Source: a virus | Strand: one strand, 5' to 3' | DNA: 64,000 bases | IMG/VR virus record: IMGVR_UViG_3300043410_001066 | Span: 1-64,000 of that record | In this document: positions 11,084-36,842 of the stretch, piece by piece | How the letters are laid out: every line of letters starts with the position of its first letter | Position numbering within the stretch: position 1 is the first letter of the stretch | Notes under the pieces: model-generated | Seen by the model: the letters and a program-made list of their open reading frames with translations, nothing else | What the model was told of the DNA's origin: nothing | Database searches by the model: none | Program-made: the position numbers and the translations under genes

Positions 11084-11809
11084 ATGGCTATTTCAAAAAG
11101 CGTTGATTTTCCAGTATCTAACAAAAGTAGTTATGCTGCACAGGTTGCACAAAGTAAGACTAATAACAGTGAAGACAATACTCTTACATTTTTACCAGTA
11201 CCTGGCCCACAAGGACCGCAAGGACCAGTAGGTAGAGATGGAAAAGATGGCAAGCCAGGAGAGGCTGGACCACAAGGACCAAAAGGCGATAGAGGTGAAA
11301 GAGGATATCCAGGCAAAGATGGTCAGAGTTCTTTATCATCATCAGGGCAGCAAGCAGGATGGGCCTCATATAAGAGTACAAAAGATTTATCAATAAGACT
11401 TGGAGCAAACTTAGGATCTGATGGATGGGTTAGCGTTTTTATGGGGGACTCAGATAAGTTTGAAGATTTTATTCCAAATGACTGCGTTAGTTTATGGAAC
11501 CAAGAACTGAGAACATTAAACTTCAAAGGTCTTAAACTTGGTGCACAAACTTTTATCACCTATAACTTTGAATTAACTACTTTTACTCCAAATACTGAGT
11601 TATGGGTTAGAACTCTTTTGGCTAAAAATGAGACTGGCATAGAGCAGTTAGTTGGATCATTTAAATATCAGCATACTTATAACTTGTCTGTTACCCAGCA
11701 ACTTTTCATTGAAAATAAAGATGTTTGGGGAATCCAGGCATTGCCACAGGCCAGAACAGATTTTGACTCATCTATAATTCTTAAATCTATCTATGTCAGC
11801 GTGGTATAA
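11084..11809 (+). CDS. Collagen-like fibre protein
   Basis: This 241-residue protein has an N-terminal segment (1-39) and a collagen-like Gly-X-Y stretch (about residues 41-79, starting GPQGPQGPVGRDGKDGKPG). A beta-rich C-terminal domain ends SIYVSVV. Gly-X-Y repeats trimerise into triple helices in phage fibres. Pro and Lys in these repeats are substrates of collagen hydroxylases in other systems, notable given the oxygenases of this phage. The last codons (GTG GTA TAA) overlap the next promoter. Confidence 0.85.
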   Translation: MAISKSVDFPVSNKSSYAAQVAQSKTNNSEDNTLTFLPVPGPQGPQGPVGRDGKDGKPGEAGPQGPKGDRGERGYPGKDGQSSLSSSGQQAGWASYKSTKDLSIRLGANLGSDGWVSVFMGDSDKFEDFIPNDCVSLWNQELRTLNFKGLKLGAQTFITYNFELTTFTPNTELWVRTLLAKNETGIEQLVGSFKYQHTYNLSVTQQLFIENKDVWGIQALPQARTDFDSSIILKSIYVSVV

Positions 11810-13492: not shown

Positions 13493-13617
13493 TGGCTAAA
13501 GTAAAGACAACAGACGAACAACTTCGTGAAACAGGGATTGCAAAACTTATTGCAGTTACAGGAATCACAGAAGCAGAATTAAGAGCATTGGGGATTACAT
13601 CAGATGGCAACAATTAA
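13492..13617 (+). CDS. 41-residue helical protein, unknown
   Basis: The product starts MAKVKTTDEQLRETGIAKLI and reads like a helix-turn-helix pair (TDEQLRETGIAKLIAVTGI, EAELRALGI). Start overlaps the upstream TAA, and the end overlaps the next gene by 14 nt. It could be a small chaperone or helical connector for the fibres. Confidence 0.55.
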   Translation: MAKVKTTDEQLRETGIAKLIAVTGITEAELRALGITSDGNN

Positions 13618-14254
13618 TTCAGACGGCAAAGTAGCATATATTTATAATCAGTCTAACGATACTTGGTATGCAATTAGTGGTGCAGTAAACACTAATGCTC
13701 CATATACTTGGACAGCCGATCAAACATTCTCTTCCGATGTAACATTTGATACAGTTGCAACAGCAAAGGCTGGAGTAAATAATTTTCAAAATCCTATTGC
13801 AAGAGATACTGTTCTAACTTCTCCAACAAATGGACTTGTGTGTTTTGTTAGACAAGAAAATGATGGAACAGTCATTAATCAAATTCAGTATTACCACAAT
13901 GGTGAGTGGAGAAACTCTTTCGACTCAATGACCCCAGTAGACATCACTGCTGATTATACAATTACAAAGAGTGATGCTGGAAAGACATTATTTATTACAT
14001 CTTCGAGTCCAGTTACGATTACAATTCCTGCAAACAGTACAACAGCATTTGCAAAAAATCAAAAAATTGAGTTTATCCGAAATGGATCTGGAACAGTTAC
14101 CTTTGCTGGAGAAGTTACAGTAGTAGGTCAGCCTTCTCCAGTTACAATTAATAGCAAGTTTTCAAACAAAAAAATTGCTGCACAGTATTCTGGTGCGGTA
14201 CTTACTAAAAAAGATACAAATACCTGGCTACTCATTGGTGATTTGACGGCGTAG
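13604..14254 (+). CDS. Tail-fibre protein with shared C-terminal module
   Basis: This 216-residue protein starts MATINSDGKVAYIYNQSNDTW. The central region has phage-fibre-like repeats. The C-terminal ~100 residues (DYTITKSDAGKTLFI...KDTNTWLLIGDLTA) closely parallel the end of the 22336-24036 fibre (RAANTWVVYGDLTA). The shared end suggests a common trimerisation or receptor-tip module moved between fibres. Confidence 0.75.
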   Translation: MATINSDGKVAYIYNQSNDTWYAISGAVNTNAPYTWTADQTFSSDVTFDTVATAKAGVNNFQNPIARDTVLTSPTNGLVCFVRQENDGTVINQIQYYHNGEWRNSFDSMTPVDITADYTITKSDAGKTLFITSSSPVTITIPANSTTAFAKNQKIEFIRNGSGTVTFAGEVTVVGQPSPVTINSKFSNKKIAAQYSGAVLTKKDTNTWLLIGDLTA

Positions 14255-14261
14255 GTTTGAG

Positions 14262-15668
14262 ATGCTAAATTTTGGGTTCTCGGCATCAAAGGGTATGGTA
14301 AGGGTACCAGACCTTTCAGGATTATCAAAAGAAGATGCTATTCTAGCAATTGCAGCAGCAAGTCTGATATATGTTGACGGAGGCTCTACAGGAACAAGTA
14401 ATTCTTCTTTGGATAATATAGTTGCTTCACAACTACCAAATGCAGATGAACTTGTTGATTATGAAACCGATGTAACATTTATTTACTATGATTATGTTGG
14501 TGTCACACCAGTAACTCCAGTTACCCCAGTTACACCTGTTACACCTGTTACTCCAGTAACTCCTGCAACTACTGTATATTGGTCGACAGGCTGTTGTAGC
14601 ACAGCAAACACTCAAGTAACAGGAACAAGCAATGTAAGTCTTGCAAATGCACAAGACAACATGGACTCATTTTGTGTTACAGGGACAATATCTAACATTC
14701 AGACTGGATCTTACACAGGCACATCAAATATACCGACGCTAGACTGTTCAGTTCAAGTTACACCAGTCACTCCAGTAGACACTACACCAAATTGGGTTGA
14801 AAGTTATAGCGAGTACCGTGCAGCATGCTGTGGAGTTGTTACAATCTATGTAGATAATAACCCAAATTCAGCAACCTACAATACAGAAAAATACAATCCT
14901 TGTTCAAATGGATGGACATACAACGATCCATGTCCAGTTACTCCAGTTACACCAGTAACTCCTGTAACTCCAGTTACGCCTACACCAGTTTGTACTCCAA
15001 CAACATATACAGAAAATAGAATTTGTAATGGCATCTCTACTCCAGTAACAATTACTGTGGCAGCAGACTGTACAGAAACTTACGATTGTCCGCCTGTATC
15101 AGTTACTCCAGTTACACCAGTAACTCCTGTAACTCCAGTTACGCCTACGCCAGTTTGTACTCCAACAACTTACACAGAGAACAGAATTTGTAATGGAACA
15201 TCTACATCTGTTACAATTACTGTAGCAGCAGATTGTTCTGAGACATGGGATTGCCCACCAGCACCTGTAACTCCTGCAGTAACACCTGTAACTCCTGCAG
15301 TAACACCTGTAACTCCTGCAGTAACACCTGTAACTCCTGCAGTAACACCTGTAACACCATGTACTCCAAATGTTTCAAGTTATAATGAATATAGAGCAGC
15401 ATGCGGAACTACTGTAACTATTTATGTTGACTCTTGTGGAAATGAGACATATACTTGTCCTGTAACTCCAGCAGTAACTCCAGCAGTAACTCCAGCAGTA
15501 ACTCCAGCAGTAACTCCAGCAGTAACTCCAGCAGTAACTCCAGCAGTTACACCTCCATCCTGTACAGTTGGTGCTATTTGTGAAACTGCTACAAATCCAG
15601 AAAATTGCATTGTTTTCTACACCTACGACAGTTCCTGCCAGTGTGTACAGGCATCAACCTATTGCTAG
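14262..15668 (+). CDS. PASTA-headed, Cys-rich adhesin with Val-Thr-Pro repeats
   Basis: This 468-residue protein starts with a PASTA-like domain (about residues 14-78: VRVPDLSGLSKEDAIL...VASQLPNADELVDYE), a fold that binds peptidoglycan or other wall polymers. Then come five Cys-containing units separated by (VTP)n or (VTPA)n spacers. Two Cys units are near-identical (TYTENRICNG...ADC.E..DCP). Spacer lengths differ and their DNA is a tandem repeat, so length can vary by recombination. The structure suits a cell-surface-binding fibre. Whether it is virion-bound is inferred from its location. Confidence 0.75.
   Translation: MLNFGFSASKGMVRVPDLSGLSKEDAILAIAAASLIYVDGGSTGTSNSSLDNIVASQLPNADELVDYETDVTFIYYDYVGVTPVTPVTPVTPVTPVTPVTPATTVYWSTGCCSTANTQVTGTSNVSLANAQDNMDSFCVTGTISNIQTGSYTGTSNIPTLDCSVQVTPVTPVDTTPNWVESYSEYRAACCGVVTIYVDNNPNSATYNTEKYNPCSNGWTYNDPCPVTPVTPVTPVTPVTPTPVCTPTTYTENRICNGISTPVTITVAADCTETYDCPPVSVTPVTPVTPVTPVTPTPVCTPTTYTENRICNGTSTSVTITVAADCSETWDCPPAPVTPAVTPVTPAVTPVTPAVTPVTPAVTPVTPCTPNVSSYNEYRAACGTTVTIYVDSCGNETYTCPVTPAVTPAVTPAVTPAVTPAVTPAVTPAVTPPSCTVGAICETATNPENCIVFYTYDSSCQCVQASTYC
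15262..15351 (+). repeat. 21-bp tandem repeats encoding VTPA spacers
   Basis: About four near-perfect copies of a 21-bp unit (CCTGTAACTCCTGCAGTAACA) encode VTPAVTP spacers. Confidence 0.7.
15458..15550 (+). repeat. 12-bp tandem repeats encoding VTPA spacers
   Basis: About seven copies of a CCAGCAGTAACT unit encode (VTPA)n near the C-terminus of the PASTA protein. They are identical at the DNA level and so prone to slippage or recombination. Confidence 0.75.
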
Positions 15669-24067: not shown

Positions 24068-25351
24068 ATGGCAGCAGGTAAGAAATCAGGTAGAAAGTCC
24101 CAAGCGTCAAATGACTTCTTGGAGCCACTAGCACCAACAGGCGTAACTGGAACAGATGTTGGAACAGGAAGAGCCTACAATGATGGCGCTGTCTCTGTAT
24201 CCTTTTCATTACCAGCACTTTCGCCTGCTGCTACATCCTATACAGTCACAGCAAGCACAGGACAAACAGCAACTGGATCATCTTCTCCAATTACTGTAAC
24301 TGGTCTTGCTTCTACATCAACACCAACATTTACAGTAACAGCAACAAATGCTGCAGGAACCTCTCAGGCTTCTTCTGCATCTGCTGCAGTAACAGTAACA
24401 ACAGTTCCAGCAACACCATCAGCCCCAACCGCTACCGCAGGAGTTGACCAAGATACTGTATCATGGACAGCATCAGCAAATGGTGGAAAGGCTATTACTG
24501 GCTACACCTGGGCATCATCTGACTCAAAAACTGGTACTACGACATCTACATCTGTTGTTGTAACACAAGAGGGTAACACTTCTCAGACATATACAGTTTA
24601 TGCAACAAATGCTAATGGAAACTCAGCAACTTCTCCAGCATCAGCATCAGTTACTACAACTCCACCATTCTTCCCACCGTTCTTCCCACCGTACTTCCCA
24701 TACTTCCCATTTTTCCCACCGTTCTTCCCACCATTCTTTCCGTTCTTCCCACCGTTCTTCCCACCGTACTTCCCATACTTCCCATTTTTCCCACCGTTCT
24801 TCCCACCATTCTTTCCGTTCTTCCCACCGTTCTTCCCAAGTTTTATCATCCCTTGGTTTGGCCCACCGTGTGTTGAGGAAAACACACTGATTGATACACC
24901 TAACGGACAGATTCCTGTAAAGAATCTACAAGTTGGAGATGTAATCTGGTCAACACCTATCAGTGAGTTGGATCCTTCAGAACCAGATTGGCAAAAGTAT
25001 GCCTGGTCTGCAAACCAACTAACAACTGGTGAACTAGTTGAGACAACAATCACAGCAATGGAAGTTGTTGAAGAGTCAGATATCATTTGCTTCAATGGAA
25101 ACTCTGATATCAGAATCACTTTCACACAGCCAATATTTGTGAAGACAGTCAACAATCAGTACAAGATTAAAGAGGCATACTACGTAGAAGTTGGCGAAAG
25201 TCTCATAGTTCTAGACTCAACTGGTCAAAAGGTTGAAGTTCCTGTAACAAGTATTGAGCACTTCACAGATGAAGTAGTAAATGTATATCAACTATCATGC
25301 GAGCCTTATGACTGGTTCTTTGTAAGTGGTATACTAGTACACAACAAGTAA
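24068..25351 (+). CDS. Fibronectin-III / Phe-Pro-repeat / Hint-domain protein
   Basis: This 427-residue protein has three parts. Residues about 16-195 are two fibronectin-III-like domains. Residues about 198-258 are an extraordinary Phe/Pro/Tyr array whose 25-residue unit (FPPFFPPYFPYFPFFPPFF...) occurs about twice. Residues 268-427 are a Hint (hedgehog/intein) domain: C268VEENTLIDTPNGQIPVKNL starts it and it ends LVHNK. The nucleophile Cys268 and the terminal HN match protein-splicing chemistry, but only one residue follows Asn426. Cleavage or covalent transfer at Cys268 is plausible; function is unproven. Confidence 0.75.
   Translation: MAAGKKSGRKSQASNDFLEPLAPTGVTGTDVGTGRAYNDGAVSVSFSLPALSPAATSYTVTASTGQTATGSSSPITVTGLASTSTPTFTVTATNAAGTSQASSASAAVTVTTVPATPSAPTATAGVDQDTVSWTASANGGKAITGYTWASSDSKTGTTTSTSVVVTQEGNTSQTYTVYATNANGNSATSPASASVTTTPPFFPPFFPPYFPYFPFFPPFFPPFFPFFPPFFPPYFPYFPFFPPFFPPFFPFFPPFFPSFIIPWFGPPCVEENTLIDTPNGQIPVKNLQVGDVIWSTPISELDPSEPDWQKYAWSANQLTTGELVETTITAMEVVEESDIICFNGNSDIRITFTQPIFVKTVNNQYKIKEAYYVEVGESLIVLDSTGQKVEVPVTSIEHFTDEVVNVYQLSCEPYDWFFVSGILVHNK
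24668..24838 (+). repeat. 75-bp tandem repeats encoding the Phe-Pro array
   Basis: A 75-bp unit encoding 25 residues of Phe/Pro/Tyr repeats occurs twice in tandem plus a partial copy. The antisense frames give Gly/Lys/Asn repeats, which are shadows. Confidence 0.7.
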
Positions 25352-25373: not shown

Positions 25374-26042
25374 ATGTCAGTCGAAAACCACGACGGTATA
25401 CTCCCTGCCTCATCTATAAGCAGAGAAATACTTATGCCAGGAATGGTACTTTATAAGAATATTTTTCCTGCGGGTATTAAAGTTATAGAAGATCTTGAGG
25501 GTGTATTATCTGACGGAAGTAACTATAAGTGGAGCCAGGCCATGGTTGGTAATAGACAAAGGGTTCCTGAATATAGAGACTGCCTAGATTTTAAATTTAA
25601 AAAATCTACAATTGTAGGAACGGATGAAAAATCTGAAACAATTAGACAGTCTTGGCAGTACCTACACGATCAAATGAATTCTGCTTTGCAAGACTATTGC
25701 ACACTCTATCCAATGGAGCCATTAGAATACTGGGAATCAATAAACTTTATTAAGTATTATCCAGGCAATCACTTTGAGTCCCATGCAGACGACGGTGCAT
25801 CCTACAAGGCTGTAGTTTCATTAGTTGGATATTTGAACGATGACTACGAAGGTGGAGAAATTTCTTTCCCAGCACATGGAATTACGATCAAGCCAGAAGC
25901 AGGAGATCTAGTTATTTTTCCATCAAACTATATGTTTATGCATAAAGCAATGCCAGTAATTAGTGGAGTAAAATACTCTATTGTTACTATGTTAGATTAT
26001 AATGAAAAATTTCACACACAGAGGTTTTATTATGGAAAGTAA
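25374..26042 (+). CDS. 2OG-Fe(II) oxygenase, P4H-like (copy 2)
   Basis: This 222-residue enzyme has the triad H137-x-D139 and H190, with Lys200 as the likely 2-oxoglutarate anchor (Lys, as in collagen-type P4Hs). The GYLNDDYEGGEISFP marker is present. It is nearly the same as copy 7 at 29851-30522 at the C-terminus (SNYM, SGVKYSIVTMLDYN), suggesting recent duplication. It follows the Hint-domain gene after 22 nt. Confidence 0.85.
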   Translation: MSVENHDGILPASSISREILMPGMVLYKNIFPAGIKVIEDLEGVLSDGSNYKWSQAMVGNRQRVPEYRDCLDFKFKKSTIVGTDEKSETIRQSWQYLHDQMNSALQDYCTLYPMEPLEYWESINFIKYYPGNHFESHADDGASYKAVVSLVGYLNDDYEGGEISFPAHGITIKPEAGDLVIFPSNYMFMHKAMPVISGVKYSIVTMLDYNEKFHTQRFYYGK

Positions 26043-26577
26043 AGAGTTGGCTTTAGGGATAAGACTGTACAGTGGAGTAGAATTACCATGTAAGGAAACT
26101 ATCTTAGGTTTGGATTTTGAAGGGGCTACAAAGGAAAGCGTTATTGTCAATGATGAATTCAGAGCAGACTATAGTTCCAGGATCACGCTATCAATTGATG
26201 TACCATATATTAATAAAGATAACAATCAGTTTACAGATATTTTTAGACAAACCTTTGACCCAGTAGAACAAGACTATATGTCTATACATGGAATATCCTT
26301 AAAATCTCATAACCCATATAAAATATTAAAGTATGAGGTCGGTGGTAAATTTGATACACACATGGACGATGGTGGGGGAAACTTTAGAAGAGTTTCTACT
26401 GTATATTATTTAAATGATAACTATGAGGGTGGAGAACTATGCTTCCCACAATTTGGCATAGAACTAAAGCCAAAGGCGGGAGATATGGTTGTTTTTCCAT
26501 CATCCTATGTATATTCACATAGTGTCAAACCAGTAACATCAGGAAATAGATTTTCTATTGCAAGTTGGCTAAAATGA
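26032..26577 (+). CDS. 2OG-Fe(II) oxygenase, P4H-like (copy 3)
   Basis: The 181-residue product has the triad H110-x-D112 and H163, anchor R173, and YYLNDNYEGGELCFP. It starts at the ATG overlapping the previous gene by 11 nt. It is closest to copy 1 (16141-16737). Short length leaves almost only the catalytic core. Confidence 0.85.
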   Translation: MESKELALGIRLYSGVELPCKETILGLDFEGATKESVIVNDEFRADYSSRITLSIDVPYINKDNNQFTDIFRQTFDPVEQDYMSIHGISLKSHNPYKILKYEVGGKFDTHMDDGGGNFRRVSTVYYLNDNYEGGELCFPQFGIELKPKAGDMVVFPSSYVYSHSVKPVTSGNRFSIASWLK

Positions 26578-27068
26578 TAGAGACAGTTAGAACCTTTGCC
26601 AATGGCGAAGACCTCATTGATATAAAAGAAAAGATTGATAAGGTTCTTCCATTAAATAAATTTAATGATGTTCCGAACTGGTCCACCGATGCTATTAGCG
26701 CAGATCAGATCTATAGAATACAAAAGTTTGTTGGCAGAGTAGTCGAAGAAACAGGTGTTATTTTGCAGAGCCAGGTTATTGATCGATTTAATAATACAAA
26801 CAAAGTGTTTCCATACATGATACAACTTATTAAGATAGATAGAAATACCTTTAGTACAGATATTATTGTAGAGGATCAAATATGTCAAACCATAACACCA
26901 CTCAAAAATGAGTGTAAGACATATATTTTAATTAATAACTCTGGAAATGTTGTAGTTCCAGATCTAGTCGATGGAGACTATGCTATAGCAGCATACTGGA
27001 CCGAATACAGAGATCTAAGATATAAAAACTGGTTTATAGGAAAGTATTTTCAGCGATATGTTGGATAG
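26574..27068 (+). CDS. Unknown protein embedded in the oxygenase cluster
   Basis: The 164-residue product starts MIETVRTFANGEDLIDIKEK and lacks any HxD motif. It has strands such as PYMIQLIKIDRNTFS and GDYAIAAYWTEYRDLRY. ATGA couples it to copy 3, and it overlaps copy 4 by 11 nt. It may be a partner or degenerate relative of the oxygenases; I cannot place it. Confidence 0.65.
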   Translation: MIETVRTFANGEDLIDIKEKIDKVLPLNKFNDVPNWSTDAISADQIYRIQKFVGRVVEETGVILQSQVIDRFNNTNKVFPYMIQLIKIDRNTFSTDIIVEDQICQTITPLKNECKTYILINNSGNVVVPDLVDGDYAIAAYWTEYRDLRYKNWFIGKYFQRYVG

Positions 27069-27528
27069 ATTCGTCATTGAAGATTTTTTATCTCAAGAAG
27101 ATTGTCATAGTCTTATTTCTGCATGCAATGAAAATGACTGGGTTGATAAAGGCGGAAACTCAAAGGTATTTATTCAAAAGACAACAAGACACGATATTAT
27201 AAAAAAAATACATAAAGGCCTAAGTGAAATGTTTGACGATCACTACCACATACAGTTAATAAGAATGGTTCATAAAACAGACTCAGAGTCTTTTTGGGAA
27301 GAGCATACAGATAGGTCTGACCACAAGGTAACAAGAGACATTGTTTATGGAGTTATAATATATCTAAATGATGATTTTTCTGGTGGTACTTTAGACTATA
27401 GCGATATGTCTATTACCCCAAAAACAGGAATGCTTGTCTGCCATCCTGGAGACATGCTTCACAAAGTATCAAAGGTAGAAGATGGTCAAAGATATACGCT
27501 AACTACATTTATTAGGAGTAAGAGTTGA
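27058..27528 (+). CDS. 2OG-Fe(II) oxygenase, P4H-like (copy 4)
   Basis: The 156-residue product has triad H83-x-D85 and H135, anchor R145, with VIIYLNDDFSGG. It is the smallest member. It opens with a short alpha helix typical of P4H N-termini (FVIEDFLSQEDCHSLISA). The stop overlaps the next TTG start. Confidence 0.85.
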   Translation: MLDRFVIEDFLSQEDCHSLISACNENDWVDKGGNSKVFIQKTTRHDIIKKIHKGLSEMFDDHYHIQLIRMVHKTDSESFWEEHTDRSDHKVTRDIVYGVIIYLNDDFSGGTLDYSDMSITPKTGMLVCHPGDMLHKVSKVEDGQRYTLTTFIRSKS

Positions 27529-28304
27529 GCACTGATATTAAATCTCCAAAGGTGAGGATATGTGAAAACTTCATATCAACTGAAGTCTGTGACTTTTTAA
27601 TAAAATATGCAGAATCCAATGACATTTGGTCACAATTTAATAATTCTGTTAAAAAGCATAATTTTAGTGACGAGCATGATCACATGTCAGCATTGAAGCA
27701 ATGGGATAACAGAAGGGTTGATATTAATGAATTGTATGCACAAGGCATGGGAAAAAGAAAAGAGTTGTTTGATATAGTTCTTCCACTACAGTATCGGATG
27801 CATGACGAGGTTGTTGATTTTTTAAAGCCAGATTTTGATTTGCACAGCGAACTATGGGAAATTGTTAGATGGAAAGAGGGAAACTTTCAGGAGCCACATG
27901 TAGACCACATTGATCCAGATTTTGACTTATCAACGATAGACCTTGATTCAGTACCAGAAGAGTGCAAATATTTTTTTGAGGAAAGAAATATTGAGAAGTA
28001 CAAAAAATTATTTACTAACAAGGCCTTTACCTCTATTATTTACCTTAATGATGATTATCAGGGTGGAGAACTTTATTTTCCACAGCACAACTCATTTCAA
28101 ATAAAGCCAAAAAAGGGAACAATGCTAATCTTCAGCGGTACTATTGATAATATGCATGGCATTAAAGAAGTAACTGGTGGAACTAGATATACACATGTTA
28201 CATTTTGGTCTAATAATATATCTAAGTCTAGCAAGATTGCTTTTGATAAAAAGGTTAATCGTTTAGTGGTAGACGACAACCATAAGCCCGTAATAGATAG
28301 TTAA
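27525..28304 (+). CDS. 2OG-Fe(II) oxygenase, P4H-like (copy 5), TTG start
   Basis: The 259-residue product has HVD (HVDHIDPDFD), a later His (NMHGIKEV) and anchor Arg (GTRYTHV), with IIYLNDDYQGGELYFP between. An insert of about 30 residues follows the HxD. Translation likely starts at TTG, 10 nt after AGGAG; no nearer ATG fits the overlap. Confidence 0.8.
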   Translation: MSTDIKSPKVRICENFISTEVCDFLIKYAESNDIWSQFNNSVKKHNFSDEHDHMSALKQWDNRRVDINELYAQGMGKRKELFDIVLPLQYRMHDEVVDFLKPDFDLHSELWEIVRWKEGNFQEPHVDHIDPDFDLSTIDLDSVPEECKYFFEERNIEKYKKLFTNKAFTSIIYLNDDYQGGELYFPQHNSFQIKPKKGTMLIFSGTIDNMHGIKEVTGGTRYTHVTFWSNNISKSSKIAFDKKVNRLVVDDNHKPVIDS

Positions 28305-28306
28305 AA

Positions 28307-28335
28307 TTGACAAAATGCATAGATCATGCTATACT
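28307..28335 (+). promoter_or_regulatory. Consensus promoter inside the oxygenase cluster
   Basis: TTGACA (28307-28312), 17 nt, TGC-extended TATACT (28330-28335). It starts a second transcription unit of the cluster. Confidence 0.85.
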
Positions 28336-28355
28336 TTACTAAAGGGAGAAAACCT

Positions 28356-29123
28356 GTGAACAATATAATTTCTTTTATGTCTAATAGGCCTTGGCTTAAA
28401 AAAGACAGCAAGTCGGCACCAACACCAATGATTAAATCAATTCCAGATTGGTACAGAGAGGCAGATCGATTTGCTAAAATGCCTAATGGAGAGTTTTACA
28501 AAGCACCTAAAGAAATATGTCCGTATCCAAAAGAGGGTACGACAGATGACTATGGAAAGATCCCGACTTGGAAGGCCTGCCCATCAGTGTTTGATATTAT
28601 GGGCACAGGATACTCCCTTAATCTACCATGCGATGTTGAGTTTATACAAAAAGATGAAAATACTTTGATTGTAAATATTGAAGATAGACAGTATAAAGAT
28701 TTTGTTACACCAAGACCACCAATGCCACAGTTTAAGCATCCAATGGGATATCATGAAAATCACTTTGCTTGGTTTTATGATTGGGGTATTAAAACTCCAG
28801 AAGGCTATAGCAGTTTGATTACTCAGCCATTTAATAGGTTTGAATTACCATTTTTAAACACCTCTGGTATAATTGACACAGACAGGGTTCATTTTCCAGG
28901 ATCTTTACCATTCTTTATTGTTAAAGGCTGGTCAGGTGTGCTTAAGGCTGGAACTCCTTTTGCACAGGTTCTTCCCTTCAAAAGAGAAGATTGGTCATCT
29001 GATTTATCAATAGAGAATCCAATGAATATGTATACACGCAATAAAGAGAATTCTGAGTTTTATAGAGTCCCAGATGGAGGGGTTTATAAAAACAAGGTAT
29101 GGAGCAGAAGGAGATACGAATAA
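28356..29123 (+). CDS. DUF6065-like protein A
   Basis: The 255-residue product starts at GTG (AAAGGGAG upstream) and includes IPDWYREADRF, CPSVFDIMGTGYSL, WGIKTPEGYSSLI and GIIDTDRVHFPGSLPF. From memory, this set of motifs marks the DUF6065 family, found beside 2OG oxygenases in marine phages. Its activity is unknown. The second relative lies at 30522-31238. Confidence 0.65.
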   Translation: MNNIISFMSNRPWLKKDSKSAPTPMIKSIPDWYREADRFAKMPNGEFYKAPKEICPYPKEGTTDDYGKIPTWKACPSVFDIMGTGYSLNLPCDVEFIQKDENTLIVNIEDRQYKDFVTPRPPMPQFKHPMGYHENHFAWFYDWGIKTPEGYSSLITQPFNRFELPFLNTSGIIDTDRVHFPGSLPFFIVKGWSGVLKAGTPFAQVLPFKREDWSSDLSIENPMNMYTRNKENSEFYRVPDGGVYKNKVWSRRRYE

Positions 29124-29851
29124 TGACAGTATATGACGAAAATGCAAATCCCTGGTTTACAAAAGATAGATCAGAGACAGCATCTAATAGAGTTGAGCCA
29201 AGACAATTAAAAGATAATATTGTTGCTGAAAATCTTGGACTTGGGCTACATGTGTATCATAAGACCTTCTCAGTAGAAGATGCAGATAGATATATCAATA
29301 CGCTTGAGTCTAATTTGTCTGGGGACAAGCAATATAAGTGGTCAGAGGCAAAAGTAACAAACTCAGATGCTCCAATCAAGAAGGCTAGAGATGCTGTAGA
29401 TTTTAAATACAAGCAAGAAAATCTTGGTCCAAGAAATGAAAATAATGCAGAACTATTAGATCTACATGAGGAAATTTATCAAAAGTTAAAATACTGCATA
29501 GATGACTATGCCCAGTACTGGGGAATAAATGTTGTTTATTATGAAGCCTTCAACTTTGTAAAATATGAGGGCCAGGGAACACACTTTAATATCCATGCTG
29601 ATCATGGTCCAGCATACAACTGTACAGTATCTGCAGTAATCTATATTAATGACGACTATGAAGGTGGAGACTTAAAATTCCCACGACTAGATAATCTGGT
29701 CTATAAGCCAAAGGCAGGAGATATTGCTGTATTCCCATCTAACTATATTTATGAGCATGCTTCTCTTCCAATGGAGTCTGGAACAAAGTATTGCGTAGTA
29801 GTTATGACAGATATTAATGAACTAGGTCACCAACAAGTTAGGAGCATGTAA
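29123..29851 (+). CDS. 2OG-Fe(II) oxygenase, P4H-like (copy 6)
   Basis: The 242-residue product has HAD (HADHGPAYN), His (YEHASLPM) and Lys anchor (GTKYCVV), with YINDDYEGGDLKFP. It has a 35-residue N-terminal extension (MTVYDENANPWFTKDRSET...) that may guide partner binding. The ATG overlaps the preceding TAA. Confidence 0.85.
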   Translation: MTVYDENANPWFTKDRSETASNRVEPRQLKDNIVAENLGLGLHVYHKTFSVEDADRYINTLESNLSGDKQYKWSEAKVTNSDAPIKKARDAVDFKYKQENLGPRNENNAELLDLHEEIYQKLKYCIDDYAQYWGINVVYYEAFNFVKYEGQGTHFNIHADHGPAYNCTVSAVIYINDDYEGGDLKFPRLDNLVYKPKAGDIAVFPSNYIYEHASLPMESGTKYCVVVMTDINELGHQQVRSM

Positions 29852-30522
29852 TGCAAACATGGACAGAAAAAATTGATCACGGCAATGGTATATTTTGCTA
29901 CAAGAATGTGATCAAAAAAGATATTGATGTAATCAACAGACTTGAGTCAAGTTTAGGGTCAGTTGCTGGATACGGAGAACTGTCTGACGAAGGAAAGCAG
30001 TACCATTGGCATCCAGCCTATGTCGGTTATAAGCAACTTATGCCAGACTACCGTGACTGTGTAGATTTTAAGTTTAAGAAGACCGATATAGAGTTAGATA
30101 AAAGCCAAACATCGCTAGACTTGCAGGCACTTTGGCAAGACCTATACGATGTAAAGTTGCCTGTTGTACAAGATTATTCTAAGATGTACAACATTAATAA
30201 TCTTCAGTATTGGGAAGCATTTAACTTTATTAAGTATGGTCCAGGTCAGCACTTTATGGAGCATCACGACCATGGCTTTTCTTATAACTGTACAGTTTCT
30301 TTGGTAGGATATCCAAATGATAACTATGAAGGCGGAGAGTTATTCTTTAGACTTCAGGGGCTAAAGATTAAGCCAGAGGCAGGGGATCTTTTTGTATTTC
30401 CTTCAAACTACATGTATCCACACCAAGCAATGCCAGTACATTCTGGGGTAAAGTATTCAATTGTGACAATGCTAGATTACAATAAGAAGTACCATACTCC
30501 AGAGATGTATCAGGAGCAGTAA
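29851..30522 (+). CDS. 2OG-Fe(II) oxygenase, P4H-like (copy 7)
   Basis: The 223-residue product has HHD (EHHDHGFSYN), His (YPHQAMPV) and Lys anchor (GVKYSIV), with GYPNDNYEGGELFF. It has one Pro for Leu substitution in the otherwise invariant YLND motif. It is the closest paralogue of copy 2, sharing the YRDC.DFKFKK and GVKYSIVTMLDYN segments. Confidence 0.85.
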   Translation: MQTWTEKIDHGNGIFCYKNVIKKDIDVINRLESSLGSVAGYGELSDEGKQYHWHPAYVGYKQLMPDYRDCVDFKFKKTDIELDKSQTSLDLQALWQDLYDVKLPVVQDYSKMYNINNLQYWEAFNFIKYGPGQHFMEHHDHGFSYNCTVSLVGYPNDNYEGGELFFRLQGLKIKPEAGDLFVFPSNYMYPHQAMPVHSGVKYSIVTMLDYNKKYHTPEMYQEQ

Positions 30523-31238
30523 TGTTCAATATAAAAGTGGAAAAGACACCTGACTCACTATTCAATATTGAGCCAATGTCTATAAAAAGAGACTGGATGG
30601 ATCTAACATCAGAAAACCATGCCTATCGTTGTTTTCCAGTTACTCAGTCTAATGTGATAGGATGGAATCTTTCCTGTACAGAGGATGTATCTTTTGAGTG
30701 GAATGGAGTTAATGACCAGTCTCCAGATACTGTAAAGATATTCAGCCCAGCGGGATCTTATTCTGGCAGAGGTCAATCATCTATAAGTCTTAATACAGGT
30801 CTTTATTTCAGAACTGATCAAGATGTTAGTATCTGGACTATTAACCCAGTTAACTATTTTAGTAATGAGTTTGAAACGATGTCCTCTCTAATGACAACAT
30901 CTTTTTACGATAATCCACTTCCGTTAGCACTAAAAGCAAAGGCTGCAAATCGTGTTGTTACCATTAAAGCAGGAACACCGCTTGCAACAATTATTCCAAT
31001 ATCTCTAACAAATCTTAACAATACAGTTATCGAGATTAATAGATACATGGATCCAGATAGAAAAAGACAAGAGGCAAACATGTCTTATGGTCAAGCATCA
31101 CAAGTTGTAAACTCTTCTGGTGAATGGACAGACTGGTACAGAAATGCTGTTAATGAAAAGGGTGAGTCTTTAGGTACCCACGAAGTAAAAACCCTAAAAC
31201 TAGGAGTAAAAAATAATATGAACGGTGATATAATATGA
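30522..31238 (+). CDS. DUF6065-like protein B
   Basis: The 238-residue product includes CFPVTQSNVIGWNLSCTEDV, SIWTINPVNYF and IKAGTPLATIIPISL. Its TxxxGWxL and IKAGTPxAxxxP elements parallel the DUF6065-like protein A (VLKAGTPFAQVLPF). It is shorter and more divergent. It begins by overlap with copy 7 and ends overlapping copy 8. Confidence 0.55.
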   Translation: MFNIKVEKTPDSLFNIEPMSIKRDWMDLTSENHAYRCFPVTQSNVIGWNLSCTEDVSFEWNGVNDQSPDTVKIFSPAGSYSGRGQSSISLNTGLYFRTDQDVSIWTINPVNYFSNEFETMSSLMTTSFYDNPLPLALKAKAANRVVTIKAGTPLATIIPISLTNLNNTVIEINRYMDPDRKRQEANMSYGQASQVVNSSGEWTDWYRNAVNEKGESLGTHEVKTLKLGVKNNMNGDII

Positions 31239-31921
31239 GCATGGAGCAAAATAAAGATCAATATTCAGTAGTTCAGAGAACGCCATCCCTTACGCCTTCT
31301 GGCTGGTTTGGTGACAGCAAAGATATGATCGTAGAGTTAGAAAATTTCATGACTCCTGAAGAAATTGAGTTCTTGGAAAAGGCTGCAAAGTCTATTACAA
31401 TTTGGGATGTTACTCAAAGCCATGTTAATGAAAATGGAACAGTTGTCTACGACTCAGATTATTGGAAAGACAGAGTTGCAACAAGTCCAACACTAGACAA
31501 GAACGATCCTGCAGTTGCGCCCGTGATTGCTGGTTTATTTCAAAGATTAAAGCCAATTGTCGAAGAGTTCTATAAAGTAGAAGTGGTTCCAACTGGAACA
31601 ACTATTGTAAGATGGCTTCCTGGTCAATTCCAAAGACCACACGCAGACAAAGAGTTACATGAGGGTCCAGATGCTGGAATGCCTAATGATTTCCCACATT
31701 ATGACTTATCAAGTTTATTCTATTTAAATGATGACTACGAGGGTGGAGAGTTATACTTTCCATTGCAGGATGTCAAGTTCAAGCCTAAAAAGGGTGCAGC
31801 GTATTTCTTCCCAGGAGATAAAAATTATATCCATGGGGTCACTGAGATAAAGAGTGGAATTAGATATACTTGCCCATTTTTTTGGGAGATTACAAAGCAT
31901 ACAGGAGAGAGACAGCCATGA
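31235..31921 (+). CDS. 2OG-Fe(II) oxygenase, P4H-like (copy 8)
   Basis: The 228-residue product has HAD (PHADKELHEG), His (YIHGVTEI) and Arg anchor (GIRYTCPF), with FYLNDDYEGGELYFP. A Pro-rich N-terminus (RTPSLTPSGWFG) precedes the helical domain. It overlaps its upstream neighbour by ATGA-like coupling. Confidence 0.85.
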   Translation: MSMEQNKDQYSVVQRTPSLTPSGWFGDSKDMIVELENFMTPEEIEFLEKAAKSITIWDVTQSHVNENGTVVYDSDYWKDRVATSPTLDKNDPAVAPVIAGLFQRLKPIVEEFYKVEVVPTGTTIVRWLPGQFQRPHADKELHEGPDAGMPNDFPHYDLSSLFYLNDDYEGGELYFPLQDVKFKPKKGAAYFFPGDKNYIHGVTEIKSGIRYTCPFFWEITKHTGERQP

Positions 31922-32664
31922 ATCTAAGCAATAAGAAGAGAATAACAAAAGATATTGTTGTTTATGAAAACTTTTTAGATGCAGAAACATCTGCTAAGAT
32001 TATTAAGGTTTTAGATAAGCATGCAGAATTAGGTGGTATCTCATGGATGCCAATTTCATTTTATGAATCATACTCTTCTGTATTGCCACAAGATGATGAT
32101 GCAGAGGTAATCGCTGAAGGATTGCCAGCAACAATCTTCTCCGATATCGAAAATATAATGCCAGAGGCAGTTGCTTCAGTTCACGATCTTGATCCAAAAA
32201 CAATTTGCAAGATTGGCTATCATACACAAAAGTGGGAGCCAGGAGCATATGCAAGAAAGCATTCAGACAATACAGATGACAAGGGTAACTCTGGTGCATT
32301 TACTAGAAGTAGGTATGCAGGATTTTTGTATCTTAATGATGACTTTGAGGGTGGCCTTTTAAGATTCCCAGATAATGATATTGAAATCAAGCCACAGGTG
32401 GGAATGCTTGCAGTATTCGACGGTGGATTTAACAATATGCATGAAGTTACACTAATAACAAAGGGTATTCGATACACGATTGGTTCTTTCTGGGATGATA
32501 GAGAAGAGTCTGCCTATCCACAGGAACTAAGAGATGCTTGGGCTGAAGAGATGAAGCAAACTAGAGCACAACAAGAAATTGAAAGAGCAGAGTGGCAAGG
32601 ACTGCTTAAAGAAGGTTATAAGTTGGACGATAAAGGCAATAAGTATAGGGTAGAGGATCTATAA
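31918..32664 (+). CDS. 2OG-Fe(II) oxygenase, P4H-like (copy 9) with helical tail
   Basis: The 248-residue product has HSD (KHSDNTDDKG), His (NNMHEVTL) and Arg anchor (GIRYTIGSF), with LYLNDDFEGGLLRFP. A unique C-terminal helical, charged tail (about residues 198-248: PQELRDAWAEEMKQTR...) may provide a partner-binding arm. Confidence 0.85.
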   Translation: MNLSNKKRITKDIVVYENFLDAETSAKIIKVLDKHAELGGISWMPISFYESYSSVLPQDDDAEVIAEGLPATIFSDIENIMPEAVASVHDLDPKTICKIGYHTQKWEPGAYARKHSDNTDDKGNSGAFTRSRYAGFLYLNDDFEGGLLRFPDNDIEIKPQVGMLAVFDGGFNNMHEVTLITKGIRYTIGSFWDDREESAYPQELRDAWAEEMKQTRAQQEIERAEWQGLLKEGYKLDDKGNKYRVEDL

Positions 32665-33327
32665 ATGGAAGTTTTTTTGAAAAAAGAATTAGAGGCCAGC
32701 GGTTTCAAACTTGATGTACTACATGACCATGTTGTAGTCGTAGAAGACTTTTTGTCAAAAACAGAACTTGATTTATTGCTAGATATTATTGCAACAACAA
32801 AAGAAGAAGATTGGTCTATCGAGTACAAGAGAAGCCTTGCTGAATTTTGCATGGAAAAGTTTGGTAGGGATGATGTTGACAATCTTGTTGCTGAGGGTAA
32901 GTATGAGATTACCAAAGGTTGGGATGATAAAAACCTAGACATTGGTAAGCGAGATGTTAGCAGAACACTTCAAAAGAGACTTGGGGATATTCTTGCTTTG
33001 GCAGACAATACACTAGAACTTGCTGGATTTGCAACTCTTCAAAGAATGCAGTCTGGAGTTCAATTGAAGTCTCATACTGATCAACACACCGATCCATCAA
33101 TTAGATATGCTGCAATAGTCTATCTTAATGATGACTATGTAGATGGAACACTGTTCTTTAAAAATATAGAGAACTCTGATTTAAGACCAAAGCCAGGTTC
33201 ATTGCTTATATTTCCAGGAAATGAAGAATATGAGCATGGTGTAAGGCATGTTGGTGAAGGCCCAATCAGATATGTGGTTGTTGGCTTTATCAAGGTTAAA
33301 GATTTTTACAAGAATAATAAATACTAG
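32665..33327 (+). CDS. 2OG-Fe(II) oxygenase, P4H-like (copy 10)
   Basis: The 220-residue product has HTD (SHTDQHTDPS), His (YEHGVRHV) and Arg anchor (PIRYVVV), with VYLNDDYVDGTLFF, a variant of the YEGGEL box. It starts directly after the previous stop. The tail ends FYKNNKY. Confidence 0.85.
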   Translation: MEVFLKKELEASGFKLDVLHDHVVVVEDFLSKTELDLLLDIIATTKEEDWSIEYKRSLAEFCMEKFGRDDVDNLVAEGKYEITKGWDDKNLDIGKRDVSRTLQKRLGDILALADNTLELAGFATLQRMQSGVQLKSHTDQHTDPSIRYAAIVYLNDDYVDGTLFFKNIENSDLRPKPGSLLIFPGNEEYEHGVRHVGEGPIRYVVVGFIKVKDFYKNNKY

Positions 33328-33336
33328 GGGGATAAA

Positions 33337-34041
33337 ATGAATAGACAAATTCTAGAAGAAAAGGTTTATTACTACGAAGATGGAGTAAAAGACTTTGAGC
33401 AGTTGATGAAGACTATCGATGAACTTGATAGCCTTGATGCAGATACTGGAACATCCTCTTGGCATGACTGGACGGCTTCAAATGACAAAGATTTTATTTA
33501 TGGATCAACAAAGACATTTGACATAAATCAAATTAATAAGTTGGATGAGCCGTATAAGTCAAAGATGGCATTTGTTTATAAGACAATCATGGATTCATTT
33601 TATGATGTTTCTAAGGATTATGCAACTGCACTTGGTGATAATGATGAGCCAAGACTTTTCCCAACCTTTAATATTAAAAAGTATAAAAAAGGAACATCTA
33701 TGGGTGCTCACTTTGATCAACTAGATGGAGACCAAACTCTGAGATATTCTTTAGTTATGTACCTAAATGATGATTTTGATGGTGGAGAGATTTCTTTCAC
33801 TATGTCTGACTATGCTGGTATTCTAAATAAGCAAACACCGCATCCAGACTATGATCACCCAGATAATGCTAAGTTAATGGATTTTTCAATCAAGCCAAAA
33901 GCAGGCAGCATTATTATTTTCCCATCGTCAGCACCATATCATCACACTGCTCACCTTGTAAAGAGCAAGTTTAAGTATATGGTTCCAGGACACTGGATTC
34001 ATAATAATATGGATTTCTATCGTTCCTCTGGCAGCATGTAG
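33337..34041 (+). CDS. 2OG-Fe(II) oxygenase, P4H-like (copy 11)
   Basis: The 234-residue product has HFD (AHFDQLDGD), His (YHHTAHLV) and a Lys anchor (KFKYMVPGH), with MYLNDDFDGGEISF. An insert rich in Pro/His/Asp (NKQTPHPDYDHPDNA) lies between the core strands. AGGGGGAT precedes the ATG. The stop overlaps the dehydrogenase GTG. Confidence 0.85.
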   Translation: MNRQILEEKVYYYEDGVKDFEQLMKTIDELDSLDADTGTSSWHDWTASNDKDFIYGSTKTFDINQINKLDEPYKSKMAFVYKTIMDSFYDVSKDYATALGDNDEPRLFPTFNIKKYKKGTSMGAHFDQLDGDQTLRYSLVMYLNDDFDGGEISFTMSDYAGILNKQTPHPDYDHPDNAKLMDFSIKPKAGSIIIFPSSAPYHHTAHLVKSKFKYMVPGHWIHNNMDFYRSSGSM

Positions 34042-34802: not shown

Positions 34803-36842
34803 ATGTCAGATTTTTTTAGTTTTAGATTAACAGATGAGTTTGTAAATAATTTTGCAACAGCACCAAATCCTTTTGGATTTAAGGATGCAGCAGAAAACTC
34901 ACTTGGAGAAATTACCTTTATTCGTACATATTCTCGTGTGAAGGAGGATGGAACTAAGGAAAGATGGCATGAGGTTTGCCGTCGTGTAATCGAGGGCATG
35001 TACTCAGTACAAAAGAATCATGCTAAGGAAAATCGTCTTCCATGGAATGACTATAAGGCTCAGAAATCAGCACAGGAAGCCTTCCAGAGAATGTTTGAAC
35101 TTAAGTGGACACCACCAGGAAGAGGTATGTGGACATTTGGAACAGCCATGACAATGGAGAAGCGTAACTCTGCTGCCCTTCAAAACTGTGCAATGGTATC
35201 AACAAAGGATCTTGATAAGAATGATCCAGGAGCATTGTTTGCATGGGTTATGGATGCATTAATGCTTGGTATTGGCGTTGGATTTGACACTGTAGGACAG
35301 GATAAGGGTTTTCAGATCTATGCTCCAACAGAACCAGCAGCGATTTATGATATTCCAGACACTCGTGAAGGATGGGTAGAATCGGTTCGCCTTTTGCTAA
35401 ACTCTTATCTTCGTTCAAATCAGCCAATCCAGCAGTTTAACTATGACCTCATCCGTCCTCTAGGAGCCCCAATTAAAGGCTTTGGAGGGGTCGCCAGCGG
35501 TCCAGCACCACTTATCCAACTACATACACAGATCGATAAGGTAATCGGCAGTAGAGCAGGAGAAACTCTTGATTCTCGTGCTATTACAGATATCATTAAT
35601 CTCATTGGTACCTGTGTTGTTTCTGGAAATGTTCGTCGTTCTGCAACACTTGCTTTAGGTGCAGCAGGAGACGAAGACTTTATTAATTTAAAGAATGCTG
35701 AAGTGTTTCCAGACAGAAACTCATTTGATCCAGAAAACCCAGGATGGGCCTGGATGTCAAATAACTCAATTTCTGCAACAGTCGGAATGGACTATGAAAA
35801 GTACACCGATCTGATTGTTAATAACGGAGAGCCAGGATTTATCTGGCTTGATGTTGCTCGTAACTATGGTCGTCTAGCAGATCCTGCAGATGGAAAGGAC
35901 TATCGTGTTATGGGCTTCAATCCTTGTGCGGAGCAGCCATTGGAGTCGTATGAACTTTGTACTCTTGTAGAGGTTCATTTAAATCGACATGAATCCAAGG
36001 AGGACTTCCTCAAGACATTGAAGTTTGCTTACCTTTATGGCAAGACAGTTACATTGCTTCCAACACACTGGCAGCAAACAAACGGTATCATGCAAAGAAA
36101 CCGTCGCATTGGAACATCTCTTACAGGCATCGCATCATTTGCTGATCAAAAGGGTCTTCCTATCGTCCGTGAGTGGATGGACGAGGGATATAACACAATC
36201 CGTAAGTATGACCGTCAATATTCAGAATGGCTTTGTGTTCGTGAATCGATTCGTGTAACAACTGTTAAGCCATCTGGTTCTGTATCAATTCTTTCTGGTG
36301 CAACTCCTGGAGTTCACTGGGGACCTGGAGGAAACTTCTTCCTTCGTGCAATTCGTTTTGGTGAAACAGATCCAATGCTTCATTTATTTAAGGCAGCGGG
36401 ATACAAGATTGAAAAAGACCTTGTATCAGCAAATACACAGGTAGTTTATTTCCCAGTAAAGTCTGGTCACCCAAGATCAGAAAAGGATGTAACGCTATTT
36501 GAAAAGATTGCTCTCGCAGCAACTGCTCAGAAGTATTGGTCAGACAATGGTGTTTCTGTTACACTATCTTTTGATAAGGAAACAGAAGCAAAGCATGTTG
36601 CACCAGCACTTCATATGTATGAGGGGCAACTCAAGGCAGTCTCATTCCTTCCAATGGGAAACACAGTTTATCCACAACAGCCATACACACAAATTACAGA
36701 AGAAGAGTATGAGTCTTATGTAGGAGTTTTAAAGCATATTGACTTCTCTGCTATTTATGATGGAAACGATAATCTTGAGGCACAGGGTGAAGCCTATTGC
36801 ACAACCGATTATTGCGAAATTAAGGTAGAAACTAAAAAGTAG
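34803..36842 (+). CDS. nrdJ: Adenosylcobalamin-dependent ribonucleotide reductase (class II)
   Basis: The 679-residue enzyme resembles the monomeric RTPR type. Conserved marks are NCAMVST, GIGVGFDTVG, GNVRRSA, NPCAEQPLESYELC (active-site Cys/Glu), KPSGSVSILSGATPGVHW (substrate pocket) and a C-terminal redox pair AYCTTDYC. It makes deoxyribonucleotides for phage DNA using B12 radicals, independent of oxygen. Length is slightly below the 739 residues of the Lactobacillus enzyme. It is transcribed from its own promoter. No partner subunit is needed. Confidence 0.9.
   Translation: MSDFFSFRLTDEFVNNFATAPNPFGFKDAAENSLGEITFIRTYSRVKEDGTKERWHEVCRRVIEGMYSVQKNHAKENRLPWNDYKAQKSAQEAFQRMFELKWTPPGRGMWTFGTAMTMEKRNSAALQNCAMVSTKDLDKNDPGALFAWVMDALMLGIGVGFDTVGQDKGFQIYAPTEPAAIYDIPDTREGWVESVRLLLNSYLRSNQPIQQFNYDLIRPLGAPIKGFGGVASGPAPLIQLHTQIDKVIGSRAGETLDSRAITDIINLIGTCVVSGNVRRSATLALGAAGDEDFINLKNAEVFPDRNSFDPENPGWAWMSNNSISATVGMDYEKYTDLIVNNGEPGFIWLDVARNYGRLADPADGKDYRVMGFNPCAEQPLESYELCTLVEVHLNRHESKEDFLKTLKFAYLYGKTVTLLPTHWQQTNGIMQRNRRIGTSLTGIASFADQKGLPIVREWMDEGYNTIRKYDRQYSEWLCVRESIRVTTVKPSGSVSILSGATPGVHWGPGGNFFLRAIRFGETDPMLHLFKAAGYKIEKDLVSANTQVVYFPVKSGHPRSEKDVTLFEKIALAATAQKYWSDNGVSVTLSFDKETEAKHVAPALHMYEGQLKAVSFLPMGNTVYPQQPYTQITEEEYESYVGVLKHIDFSAIYDGNDNLEAQGEAYCTTDYCEIKVETKK

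Follow-up and report, generated by a model that had tools for sequence, protein, structure and literature searches.

A C-terminal Hint domain as an exchangeable and putatively self-processing tip of a freshwater phage fibre

The fibre-like protein encoded in the window, by which we mean the whole 64,000-nucleotide stretch of viral DNA analysed here, ends in a domain of HINT fold that begins with an invariant cysteine (Cys1, Cys268) and runs to a terminal His-Asn-Lys, and relatives of this fibre carry other C-terminal modules at the same place. Slow, Cys268-dependent cleavage at the putative Pro267-Cys268 scissile bond, followed by hydrolysis and loss of the Hint domain, is in our tentative judgement the most likely reading of this arrangement. 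Comparison of the gene with its relatives suggests a modular phage fibre, built from an N-terminal FN3 part, a Phe/Pro stalk that varies and a C-terminal module that can be exchanged (Table 1). The FN3 assignment corresponds to a Pfam match (PF00041) below the cut-off (E=3.4e-4), and this part of the fibre has no match among named phages. The DNA of the stalk holds 2.3 tandem copies of a 75-bp unit with no mismatch (24668-24838), bearing out the unusual Phe/Pro/Tyr repeat of the original prediction, and the protein terminates in ...GILVHNK-stop with Lys427 as the sole residue beyond Asn426, as had also been predicted. The source phage is freshwater. Portal and capsid proteins have their closest counterparts in Streptomyces phages such as BillNye, which makes an actinobacterial host plausible.

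Table 1. Features of the window that bear on the fibre and its neighbourhood
Feature	Coordinates	Strand	Remarks
Fibre-like protein, 427 aa	24068..25351	+	Basic N-terminus followed by a pair of FN3-like repeats, the Phe/Pro array and Hint at the C-terminus
FN3-like repeat part at the N-terminus, aa 1-198	24068..24661	+	71-85% identity across fibres with very different tips
Phe/Pro/Tyr array, variable tandem repeat	24662..24838	+	75-bp unit; 12/21/42-bp sub-periods
IPWFGPP heptapeptide, immediately N-terminal to Cys1	24848..24868	+	Kept in the window's clade
Hint domain, 160 aa, Cys268 to HNK end	24869..25348	+	Cys1, TFTQ, Y-Q-L, His425-Asn426-Lys427
Two genes matching the relatives' class b fibre	13604..15668	+	End ...CQCVQASTYC, no Hint; relatives' copy Hint-bearing
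2OG-Fe(II) oxygenase cluster, prolyl-hydroxylase-like	25374..34041	+	Nine PF13640 matches above the Pfam cut-off; DUF6065 and unassigned genes
Ribonucleotide reductase, syntenic marker	34803..36842	+	88% identical copy in relatives' loci

An AF2 model of the domain, built on a 35-sequence alignment, reached a pLDDT of 89 (50 with close relatives alone), and its predicted horseshoe beta fold confirms, at the level of the model, membership of the HINT superfamily. Foldseek searches with this model recovered the BIL domain 2lwy (E=1.3e-7), the BIL2 domain 6y75 (E=2.5e-8) and hedgehog 1at0 (TM(target) 0.78), and the best 50 PDB matches listed were Hint, intein or hedgehog structures. The Pfam match of the fibre to Hint_2 (PF13403) is below the cut-off (E=2.7e-4), domain scores of 21.8-24.2 bits not reaching the curated 28.4 bits; among the isolated domain and its relatives, Hint_2 was matched in 21 of 22 members and Intein_splicing in 19. 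From these matches, the claim that a Hint domain starts at Cys268 stands. BFVD entries with the same fold come from uncultured Caudovirales and are named 'Hint domain containing protein' and 'Fibronectin type III'. In the near clade the median dN/dS is about 0.08 (124 pairs, 18 sequences) and the codons for Cys1, Gln, His and Asn show synonymous changes; such purifying selection, together with the synonymous changes at the Cys1, His and Asn codons, argues that the domain is not a product of chance. No Hint relatives were found in GTDB genome contigs, and scans of viral contigs seeded with NCTB and with L064 gave no matches.

Tens of viral-contig loci end in the same way as the window gene, with IPWFGPP followed by CVEENT...HNK-stop, and the Hint domain is borne by two distinct fibre genes, class a (FN3 type, mostly 420-460 aa) and class b (680-1000 aa, with VTPA, PVAPT, TTAA or TEAP linkers). 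Several phages carry Hint on both fibres, and the window on class a only; at 14262-15668 of the window a PASTA domain (PF03793) precedes VTP/VTPA repeats and Cys-rich units, and the relatives' Hint is missing. Paired Hint tips within one phage group are 68-88% alike (78-88% between the class a and class b copies of group 1), against 57-64% for positional counterparts between the main groups, and this greater likeness within groups points to repeated copying of Hint between class a and class b genes. A scan with the FN3 part returned at least 402 relative stretches in IMG/VR, and in the best 80 of the 402 this part is 71-85% identical while the ends beyond the array differ: there are Hint domains, Cys-rich tails (GCSGCIRSYCWQACPGCCGSCGC and its variants), short tails such as GGNKWSPRAT, and chaperones; in many relatives the gene stops shortly after the array. 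The Cys-rich tips (L126-L203) put up to eight or more cysteines on the same fibre, and a gene of about 140 aa with no Pfam match often lies behind fibres tipped in this way (e.g. L131:5615-6043). Peptidase_S74 stands in frame at the place of Hint in L151 (PF13884, E=1e-7) and, as assigned by motif, in L196; the window fibre has no PF13884 match in Pfam. S74 domains remove themselves from fibres and other low-complexity-rich proteins (PMC7824862, PMC6872550), and their occurrence at this place implies that Hint sits where a C-terminal processing module would. Both S74 domains (L151:324-1680, L196:5001-6200) are split over two ORFs with a similar break point on separate contigs, for which a chaperone acting in trans, a frameshift or an assembly error are possible alternatives.

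A canonical Hint domain has Cys1, TxxH in block B, in many cases an Asp in block F, and a His-Asn pair; the block-B His, the block-F Asp and the residue at -1 ordinarily promote or accelerate the N-S acyl shift. Cys1 is present in all 50 Hint sequences compared, from six fibre lineages and jumbo-phage tails, with one Gly as the only other invariant residue, and His-Asn is retained in 45. Throughout the window's clade block B reads TFTQ or TYTQ, with Gln354 in place of the usual His, Gln (Y-Q-L) replaces the usual block-F Asp, Pro267 is at -1, Cys1 and HNK are retained, and a block-F Cys (residue 411) is invariant. The other lineages present a series of combinations: GL before Cys1 with TFTQP and HNK (L086); Gly at -1 with block-B LTQP, which has no His, and HNK (L197-L202); Tyr at -1 with TEGEK and HNSKV (L143/L185); Tyr at -1 with LNQP and HN lost (L215/L217); Lys at -1 with TEHP or AEHP and HN lost (L243/L259); and Lys at -1 with VTQP and HN lost (L260). 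Block-B His and HN are mostly retained in the jumbo-phage tails. The HN-less sequences form one group on the tree, with one change (support 97/93), and still have Cys1; block-B T/A-E-H-P is found in two of these five, and this motif with Cys1 and without HN may be the least that the N-terminal reaction on its own requires, as in hedgehog. The pattern of conservation suggests selection on Cys1 above all, and as such an N-terminal reaction or a Cys-based bond. L036:4480-4941 (phage NCTB BN7874_135) encodes a separate Hint-like protein that lacks Cys1 and ends in ILVHNKVD, next to a Hint-tipped tail gene. A bulky residue at -1 can stand in for the block-B His (PMC6333167), and in a RadA intein N-terminal cleavage was tolerated by all 20 residues at -1, being slow but nearly complete with Pro (PMC11842431); these examples imply that neither loss of the block-B His nor Pro at -1 is fatal. 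Among the Hints compared here, His loss and bulk at -1 show a trend only (P, L, Y, Y versus two Gly), and steric compensation is not general, since the His-less L197-L202 carry Gly at -1.

Of known systems, the BIL domains of Clostridium thermocellum (2lwy) and Tetrahymena BUBL1 (BIL2, 6y75) share with the window Hint the fold, Cys1 and a His-Asn end without Cys, Ser or Thr at +1, and themselves sit in variable proteins. The window Hint thus has the Cys1 and C-terminal His-Asn of an A-type BIL domain, but TxxQ (TFTQ/TYTQ in its clade) where these have the block-B TxxH, and it differs further in its single residue past Asn and its position at the extreme end of a phage fibre. It is not an intein, as Lys427 is both the +1 and the final residue, and the view that ordinary splicing does not occur holds, since the protein lacks a C-extein nucleophile and has no parts that splicing could join; a class 3 intein (WCT motif) was rejected because Cys1 is there and the conserved block-F Cys lies elsewhere than in class 3. 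Nor is it a pretoxin HINT (PT-HINT), as a stop codon and no toxin domain follows HNK. The hedgehog Hog domain shares the HINT fold (1at0, TM 0.78) and Cys1, and the N-terminal reaction alone is conceivable for both, but the window Hint lacks the TxxH His and a sterol-recognition region and ends in HNK. Databases already contain Hint domains from phage tail proteins: those of jumbo phages (NCTB BN7874_136/132, Erwinia Yoloswag/Alexandra/SNUABM, Yersinia fHe-Yen9-02) are homologous to the window Hint at 25-35% identity, C-terminal in a tail or fibre gene, and have the W-S-x-x-x-L insert in common with it. Unlike the window Hint, they mostly have HEHP or EQHP (block-B His), Gly at -1 and about 7-12 residues past HN, and their fibre parts are unrelated. 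With C-terminal Hints annotated in tail proteins of NCTB and of Erwinia, Dickeya, Yersinia and Alcaligenes phages, the suggestion of novelty for a phage tail goes too far. Peptidase_S74, an intramolecular chaperone of tail fibres, resembles the window Hint in position only, being C-terminal and, as proposed for Hint, shed after use; it has an unrelated fold, Ser/Lys chemistry and a folding role of which Hint shows no sign.

We propose that the Hint domain acts as a C-terminal self-processing module, in which Cys1 would make an N-S acyl shift at Pro267-Cys268, the thioester would be hydrolysed for want of a downstream nucleophile, and Hint would leave. The mature fibre would then end in ...IPWFGPP, resembling those relatives whose gene stops past the array, and the process would parallel that of the self-removing S74 of two relatives without Hint being an S74. 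This reading is favoured by the HINT fold, strong purifying selection, the invariance of Cys1 (kept also by the HN-less clade) and the retention of HN in 45 of 50 sequences, by S74 at the same place in L151 and L196, by the many relatives that end past the array in the manner expected of a cleaved fibre, and by the compensable nature of His loss and the tolerance of Pro at -1 elsewhere. Of the N-S acyl shift and release originally predicted, Cys1 and the terminal His-Asn speak for the chemistry, while Pro at -1 and the absence of block-B His and block-F Asp from the entire window clade speak against it, and the missing His suggests that the reaction would be slow or conditional. The reading is also weakened in that Cys1 may serve the fold or a disulfide, block-F Cys411 being present. 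Self-cleavage of an adhesin at its base does not fit the gene, as Hint is distal and cleavage would shed Hint itself, exposing ...IPWFGPP.

There is a real possibility that Hint is instead a catalytically silent knob of HINT fold, serving as a fibre cap or in receptor binding or oligomerisation and swapped like other tips. Loss of block-B His and block-F Asp, loss of His-Asn in one clade, interchange with Cys-rich and short tails, and the likeness of both fibres' Hints within one phage group, as if meeting one partner, would be consistent with such a knob; the invariance of Cys1 over six lineages and the retention of HN in 45 of 50 sequences are unexpected for pure binding, in which exposed loops should vary most. 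Covalent attachment, also part of the original prediction, would require that a surface amine or alcohol of host or virion attack the thioester, as in the Hog domain, where a foreign nucleophile does so in hedgehog-like transfer. The anatomy permits a foreign nucleophile, but we found no support for this and consider it very improbable: unlike in Hog proteins no acceptor-binding region follows Hint, a protein folded in the producing cell would have to delay transfer until host contact, the catalytic set is slow, and the lineages lend no support. A decayed or mobile intein remnant, suggested by the fold and the HN end, is largely refuted and scarcely credible given that C-extein and endonuclease are both absent, dN/dS is about 0.08, the architecture is uniform in relatives and distinct fibre genes bear Hint.

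The stalk is associated with a second feature of the locus. All 64 tested fibres with Pro-Pro arrays (63 distinct plus the window) have 2OG-Fe(II) oxygenase genes at most 3.3 kb downstream, and none of the four loci with SFTPY-type arrays (L143, L150, L164, L185) does, giving a Fisher value of 6e-6 that overstates independence, the loci being related; at least two tip types are involved, and perhaps one loss event. Whole records have 0, 1, 0 and 0 PF13640 matches in the four SFTPY cases, against 6-12 in eight records with Pro-Pro arrays. The interval from fibre to ribonucleotide reductase is 9.4 kb in the window, mostly oxygenase genes, and short in the four SFTPY loci; in oxygenase-free loci the 88% identical reductase follows the fibre at a distance of one to three genes. 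One o6-like gene lies between the two in L143, L150 and L185; in L164 an o6-like gene is joined there by a Zn-ribbon gene and a sulfotransferase-like gene. A need of Hint for the oxygenases was rejected, as the ox7-ox8-ox10 core trails the fibre whatever its tip; only an extra ox1-ox2-o3-ox5 block accompanies the window-type Hint. A GlcNAc transferase (PF11397), of the Skp1 hydroxyproline family, adjoins Hint-tipped class b genes (L053:6526-7710, L032:4495-5679, L011:8155-9066, L013:7232-8143); of 13 records, two matched PF11397, each of them bearing Hint on a class b fibre, and the window's record did not. In some loci this transferase is fused to a DUF6171 zinc-ribbon, and a radical SAM/SPASM gene (L011) and a sulfotransferase-like gene (L164) occur at its place. 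A collagen-like GPQGPQGP stretch in a tail-region protein (window 11084-11809) is another possible oxygenase substrate. It is conceivable, if doubtful, that the P4H-like oxygenases hydroxylate the Pro-Pro stalk units (Phe/Pro, Thr/Pro), that the GlcNAc transferase glycosylates them in some relatives, and that Hint is removed last.

In the open literature we found no covalent attachment by, or Hint domain in, phage fibres, and the exchange of Hint and S74, the series of losses around an invariant Cys1 and the link between arrays and oxygenases appear undescribed in the literature searched. The distal end of this fibre interchanges HINT, an S74-type chaperone, a Cys-rich tail or nothing, which adds Hint to the known C-terminal modules of fibres. 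The natural catalytic series, with and without block-B His, with and without HN, and always with Cys1, makes the purpose of Cys1 directly testable. The link between Pro-Pro arrays and oxygenases yields a definite hypothesis on the substrate of the 2OG oxygenases of aquatic phages, which have lacked an explanation, and, if that hypothesis were true, a bacterial virus would make a hydroxyproline-rich protein or glycoprotein.
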